A program made the position numbers and the translations under genes. The notes under the pieces were generated by a model. That model saw only the letters and a program-made list of their open reading frames with translations. It searched no databases and had not been told where the DNA came from. Positions 57,424-57,523 of a DNA stretch of 64,000 bases are shown here, one piece after another (the first letter of the stretch is position 1; the number at the start of each line of letters is the position of its first letter). Source of the DNA: an uncultured Acidobacteriaceae bacterium (GTDB lineage: Bacteria; Acidobacteriota; Terriglobia; Terriglobales; Acidobacteriaceae); NCBI GenBank assembly GCA_903842065.1, contig CAIMKZ010000093.1:186001-250000 (forward strand), written 5' to 3'.

Positions 57424-57444
57424 AGCTTTTAGCTATTAGCTGAA
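57424..57444 (+). repeat. AGCTNNN heptamer array, left
   Basis: AGCTTTT AGCTATT AGCTGAA. Confidence 0.65.
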
Positions 57445-57488
57445 AGCGATCTCTGGCGAACACATACATTTTCAAGCTGCGCCGATGC

Positions 57489-57523
57489 AGCTAAAAGCTA
57501 ATGGCTAAGAGCTAACAGCTATC
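57489..57523 (+). repeat. AGCTAAN heptamer array, right
   Basis: AGCTAAA AGCTAAT GGCTAAG AGCTAAC AGCTATC, ending at the groEL SD. Confidence 0.75.

Follow-up and report, generated by a model that had tools for sequence, protein, structure and literature searches.

The groES-groEL intercistronic gap of an uncultured member of the Acidobacteriaceae contains two opposed arrays of 7-bp repeats, which raises the question of whether these arrays form a device dedicated to groEL or represent one copy of a more widespread element. The genome concerned (G000) is an acidobacterial draft of 4.09 Mb in 106 contigs, its family being judged from the named relatives around it in a GroES/GroEL tree. The locus is part of the window, i.e., the whole stretch of 64,000 nucleotides of DNA analysed (C93:186001-250000).

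Layout of the groES-groEL gap

The gap between groES and groEL is 119 bp long (Table 1). The sequence-only reading had placed opposed 7-bp arrays at positions 57424 to 57523, filling the gap, and every unit and coordinate of these arrays was confirmed, above chance. Indeed, a two-unit heptamer pattern matched eight times in the window versus 0.99 times expected, a number reached by none of 100 shuffles, and all eight matches fell inside the groES-groEL gap. In addition, the right array was reported by TRF. The arrays do lie inside the gap, but they flank a non-repetitive interior instead of filling it. The left arm starts 8 bp past the groES stop codon and, read on the minus strand, belongs to the AGCTAAN family and points into groES. 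The right array abuts the groEL ribosome-binding site, as had been proposed, the AGGAG motif following immediately after position 57523.

Table 1. Features of the groES-groEL region (window coordinates)
Feature	Position	Strand	Basis and remarks
groES (Cpn10)	57113-57415	+	Sequence and Pfam
Left arm, three heptamers	57424-57444	-	Sequence, pattern matches, arm polarity survey; AGCTTTT (57424-57430), AGCTATT (57431-57437), AGCTGAA (57438-57444)
Predicted intercistronic hairpin	57424-57513	+	57424-57441 predicted to pair with 57496-57513
Interior (loop) between the arms, non-repetitive, 44 bp	57445-57488		Sequence
Right arm, five heptamers, reading into groEL	57489-57523	+	Sequence, TRF, pattern matches, arm surveys; AGCTAAA (57489-57495), AGCTAAT (57496-57502), GGCTAAG (57503-57509), AGCTAAC (57510-57516), AGCTATC (57517-57523)
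groEL Shine-Dalgarno AGGAG	57524-57528	+	Sequence; immediately 3' of the last right-array unit; predicted to be unpaired between 10 and 60 °C
groEL (Cpn60)	57535-59205	+	Sequence and Pfam; start ATG at 57535

Upstream of groES, a CIRCE-like inverted repeat (TTAGCAATT-N9-GACTGCTAG; 56950-56976) was found, which was the only match in the window, and similar CIRCE-like sequences occur upstream of groES in relatives. Judged by its sequence, this repeat is a likely candidate for an HrcA operator, so that heat regulation has a candidate of its own, apart from the arrays. Elsewhere in the window, an Acido-Lenti-1 RNA (RF01687; 51723-51767; 42.5 bits) was the sole Rfam match at the gathering score. 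A transposase of the IS481 kind (HTH_32, rve, LZ_Tnp_IS481; 59505-60674, minus strand) is encoded directly downstream of groEL. The sequence TCATCCTGAGCGAAG (50483-50497 and 59298-59312) gave four matches with at most two mismatches versus 0.2 expected and is apparently another dispersed repeat, its copy at 59298 being located after groEL.

Dispersal of heptamer families in the genome and the genus

The pattern AGCTN3AGCTN3AGCT gave 224 overlapping matches in the own genome versus none for the backwards control. In units of the AGCT family, the core is fixed and the last positions vary freely (A/G-G-C-T-R-N-N), and the arrays mix a vocabulary of unit variants on this core. Beside AGCTRNN, the families CCTGANC, ACTGANN, and CCTAGTC were present. 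In 1.17 Mb of this genome, 59 lag-7 arrays were intergenic and nine genic (control lags, 2-12 intergenic), part of the sampled sequence having been picked for holding matches, so that array densities are not to be extrapolated. Genes were called with a purpose-written codon-usage caller, start sites being approximate. Array-pair interiors had no second copy in the same 1.17 Mb. In one intercistronic gap of the own genome (L158, G000:C2, 402-732), two complete inverted elements occur in tandem, the former of the AGCT family and the latter of the CCTG family; the end of this contig (14831-14976) is a near-perfect CCCTGAC array of about 19 units, and arrays of this type may break assembly.

Nearly all genomes of the genus contained the AGCTN3AGCTN3AGCT pattern (0 to 243 matches), and it was found in few genomes of the wider order and class. 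The ACTGNNN and CCTGNNN families coexist with the AGCT family in the same genomes, in varying proportions.

Placement and polarity of the arrays at gene ends

Position and polarity were surveyed in the own genome and in G001, G004, and G009, all of one genus (2.75 Mb; arms of at least three units; gaps of at least 40 bp). Arms were present in 70 of 953 co-directional gaps, in 15 of 264 convergent ones, and in six of 369 divergent ones (co-directional versus divergent, p = 2e-5; convergent versus divergent, p = 0.006). Measured from the outer edge of the arms, the median distance to gene 3' ends was 7 bp and that to gene 5' ends 19 bp; 53% of the arms were located at most 15 bp from a gene end, versus 26% (sd 4%) of randomly placed ones. 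Of the 100 arms no more than 30 bp away from a gene end, 94 were directed 5' to 3' into the adjoining gene, as were 49 of 51 solitary arms (p = 1e-12), the direction call of the partly palindromic AGCT family depending on the fifth base. The ACTG and CCTG families, the direction of which is unambiguous, obeyed the same rule: of their 28 solitary arms located at most 60 bp from a gene end, 25 conformed to it. This polarity was symmetric between the 5' and 3' ends of genes. In a first survey, all clear two-arm co-directional gaps contained a minus arm followed by a plus arm, and in one convergent gap, the arms at the two ends belonged to different families. The two opposed arrays of a co-directional gap, such as that between groES and groEL, are thus a special case of the into-gene rule. 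At least half of the array-bearing gaps held a single arm without a detectable partner, indicating that a hairpin is not obligatory.

The sequence-only reading had counted an occurrence of the heptamer at many unrelated intergenic sites, without positional bias, as evidence against its proposal. The heptamer is dispersed indeed (224 matches), but with a strong bias in both position and orientation.

Turnover of array families at the same junctions

Inverted heptamer arrays of differing families (AGCTRNN, AGCTNTC, ACTGATC, ACTGACA, AGTTCNC, CCTGANC, and CCTGTAC) were retrieved from the groES-groEL gap of about 20 members of the genus, a few members having one arm or none (e.g., L030 and L033). 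Absence from relatives was likewise to have told against the arrays; inverted heptamer arrays are kept at this site, but their sequence differs. In other genera of the family, the gap mostly contains unrelated hairpins, and in the next family it is often just 26-34 bp long. The genes of G001 and G009 share 95.8% (groES) and 92.7% (groEL) DNA identity, yet the gap carries different array families in the two genomes. G010 and G004 (groEL, 95.7%) have their array family in common and differ by the gain or loss of units. Among syntenic gaps of G001 and G009, arrays co-occurred in 5 of 6 versus 2 of 36 cases (p = 1.4e-4), with mostly different units; in a pooled table of six genome pairs, the groES-groEL gap is counted more than once, so that the entries of this table are not independent. 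Hence, at groES-groEL and at a few other junctions, the position of the arrays is retained between species, whereas the heptamer family that occupies it changes.

Predicted fold and the groEL ribosome-binding site

The left and right arrays had been proposed to be complementary on the RNA, and a hairpin was predicted accordingly, with an imperfect stem of 18 bp (16 Watson-Crick and two G.U pairs; energy z = -2.96). The median symmetric hairpin score was 18.6 versus 9.0 for shuffles. The groEL Shine-Dalgarno sequence was predicted to be 84-89% unpaired at all temperatures between 10 and 60 °C, which argues against the thermosensing suggested before and weakly for an insulating hairpin. Its predicted openness was 0.88 for the native sequence versus about 0.60 with shuffled arms; across 19 relatives, the effect was modest (0.67 versus 0.56 shuffled, p = 0.012). 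A thermosensor acting by Shine-Dalgarno sequestration was thus rejected on the basis of a predicted site that is open at 10-60 °C, and more so than with shuffled arms. Similarly, an RNA thermometer, of the ROSE type or other, would have a cold-paired ribosome-binding site, whereas this site was predicted to be unpaired (0.84-0.89), and no Rfam family matched the groES-groEL gap.

An intrinsic terminator, i.e., a GC-rich hairpin with a T run, was rejected too, given the AT-rich stem and the sequence AGGAGAAAACAATG behind the right arm, in which there is no T run. A three-frame stop function was considered, as 7 equals 1 modulo 3 and CTGA, CTAG, and CTAA hold stop codons; CCTG-family arms near the groES stop codon (L023 and L031) lack a stop codon, so that this role cannot be general. 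A seemingly conserved inner flank of the arms resembles a decayed unit.

Pair-specific co-evolution of the arms was not seen, own arms scoring 19.3 versus 19.2 with arms of other gaps. G.U and A.C mismatches numbered 52 versus 50 in a first set, 145 versus 109 in a larger set (uncorrected p = 0.03; p = 0.17 and 0.23 in sign tests), and 35 versus 30 in 1 Mb of G009, an excess of a sign that a coding-strand C-to-T bias would yield as well. This excess is small and inconsistent, and neither test gave a sign of selection on RNA pairing itself. A device specific to groEL that sets the GroEL:GroES stoichiometry, as put forward in the sequence-only reading, is not supported, in view of the genome-wide dispersal of the heptamer and of arms that pair no better within a gap than between gaps.

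Relation to known repeat systems

REP and BIME elements comprise hundreds of intergenic palindromes per genome, are located at gene 3' ends and between the genes of operons, are rare in divergent gaps, and possibly stabilise mRNA. The arrays resemble them in lying outside genes, at 3' ends and between the genes of operons, and in being rare in divergent gaps. Unlike REP/BIME, they contain neither a conserved palindrome of 20-40 nt nor a tag, the arms being tandem heptamers. The REP/RAYT class is characterised by a single conserved palindrome, whereas the arms are tandem and degenerate, with interiors that are single-copy in 1.17 Mb. Moreover, counts of Y1 (PF01797) transposases do not follow array number: G036 has no Y1 matches but 29 AGCT, 160 ACTG, and 61 CCTG array matches, and G026 has eight Y1 matches and almost no arrays. 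A MITE or other mobile element would have a common interior, and interiors were not shared in the 1.17 Mb sampled. Membership of the REP/RAYT and MITE classes is therefore not supported.

TAACTGA direct repeats occur in marine Beggiatoaceae, Cyanobacteria, and Bacteroidetes; in Beggiatoaceae, they point to start codons in 147 of 170 sets and to stop codons in 12 (MacGregor 2015; PMC4679880). They are dispersed intergenic heptamer arrays too, with orientations in line with the into-gene rule, and rotating TAACTGA yields ACTGATA, which belongs to the ACTGANN family of the relatives. Tandem intergenic 7-mers directed toward a start codon occur here as the right arm in front of groEL and as the 5'-end arms of the sampled genomes. 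The TAACTGA heptamer itself is absent from the gap, where the units are AGCTRNN, ACTGATA-like units occurring in relatives only. In the excerpted text of PMC4679880, the repeats are of one fixed heptamer, mostly at start codons, with only one inverted pair in the whole genome and no predicted RNA structure, whereas many families, mostly at 3' ends, with frequent inverted pairs and a predicted hairpin, were found here.

Geobacter metallireducens has paired tandem hepta- and octanucleotide sites of classes 1-3 (e.g., MTYCTGA x5), which the excerpted source reads as sites of global regulators (PMC2700814). These resemble the present arrays in their tandem heptamers, CTGA core, opposite-strand pairs at variable distance, and location inside some operons, such as proBA (PMC2700814, excerpts). 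Opposite-strand tandem heptamer pairs as in class 3 were found in the clear two-arm co-directional gaps, with AGCTRNN units instead of the class 3 consensus MTYCTGA. Unlike the present arrays, the Geobacter sites, as excerpted, are few (eight class 3 pairs), have one sequence per class, and are proposed regulator sites, and the same excerpts describe neither polarity nor family turnover (PMC2700814).

Heptamers are the most abundant of the 5-11 bp repeats in many bacteria, for which slippage has been proposed (LSSR; Mrazek 2007, as cited in excerpts of PMC4679880), and heptamer simple repeats include the cyanobacterial STRR and the G-rich heptamers of Xanthomonas and Nostoc (PMC4692102). All share an intergenic 7-bp tandem unit with the present arrays, the units of which, in contrast, are degenerate on a fixed core, oriented at gene ends, and inverted in pairs. 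The excerpted parts of PMC4679880 and PMC2700814 state neither an into-gene rule at both gene ends nor family turnover at fixed sites, and a literature search with exact unit strings retrieved no paper.

Possible origin and function of the arrays

The role of the arrays is most likely generic and REP-like, and there is nothing groEL-specific or temperature-sensing about those between groES and groEL. The explanation tentatively preferred, which is a distinct possibility, is that they are one copy of a lineage-wide, dispersed gene-end element that forms a REP-like intercistronic hairpin on the operon mRNA. Each arm comprises three to six 7-bp units, which are degenerate around an NCTR core (AGCTRNN in this gap). 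It is placed either a few bp from a stop codon or a short distance in front of a ribosome-binding site and reads 5' to 3' into the adjoining gene, co-directional genes thereby carrying two opposed arrays, as observed. On a polycistronic mRNA, the two arms are predicted to fold into an imperfect hairpin, the ribosome-binding site downstream of it remaining unpaired. Such a hairpin would protect or separate the upstream and downstream mRNA segments, would prevent the spacer from base-pairing with the ribosome-binding site, and may have a generic effect on groES and groEL mRNA levels.

A neutral or selfish mutation product is a serious rival, possible yet more doubtful, in which slippage would expand heptamers, hairpin-templated repair would invert copies, and selection would only purge coding sequences and promoters. 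It is consistent with the abundance of heptamers and the slippage proposal (Mrazek 2007, as cited in excerpts of PMC4679880), with the gain or loss of units between G010 and G004 in the groES-groEL gap, and with the lack of both pair-specific covariation and a clear strand-specific wobble excess. However, simple slippage would yield identical neighbouring units instead of variants mixed on a fixed core, and such an origin predicts neither solitary arms directed into the adjoining gene (49 of 51) nor arrays that recur at the same junctions with another family. The equal polarity at 5' and 3' ends fits a mark at the DNA level better than an mRNA motif, and solitary arms are common. These observations, together with the Geobacter paired heptamer/octamer sites taken as global regulator sites (PMC2700814, excerpts), would be consistent with oriented double-stranded DNA binding arrays at gene ends for a putative protein (as an insulator, topology, or recombination site), whose drifting specificity would change the family genome-wide. 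This is a serious rival too, but an improbable one: several families coexist per genome, so that a single binding protein would have to accept all of them; no candidate protein was found, and the REP-associated Y1 transposases do not track array number.

Finally, a groEL-specific RNA switch, in which pairing in alternative registers would tune the GroEL:GroES ratio or sense temperature, is very improbable. The arms are complementary and adjoin the ribosome-binding site, and weak pairing is predicted between the last unit of the right arm and AUGGC at the beginning of groEL, the unpaired fraction of the AUG rising from 0.08 at 37 °C to 0.47 at 60 °C. However, this start-codon pairing is not common to the relatives (AUG unpaired, 0.33-0.83, predicted), the Shine-Dalgarno sequence is predicted to be open at all temperatures, the arms are predicted to be still about 90% paired at 60 °C, and the same class of element occurs at many unrelated genes.

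Bacterial intergenic heptamer repeats have so far been reported piecemeal, without a general rule. The rule found here is simple: at the 5' and the 3' end of a gene alike, the adjacent array is directed into that gene, which also accounts for opposed arrays between genes. It also cautions against interpreting arrays beside one gene, groEL in this case, as its regulator. The turnover at fixed sites makes function testable, since, if an array of a foreign family can substitute, position and direction matter and not sequence. Arrays that read into the gene at both ends, at junctions that are kept while the word is replaced, might even represent a polar gene-boundary mark, with position and direction, not sequence, under selection; this is on the unlikely side, but, if true, gene boundaries would be marked by a system whose code drifts rapidly.
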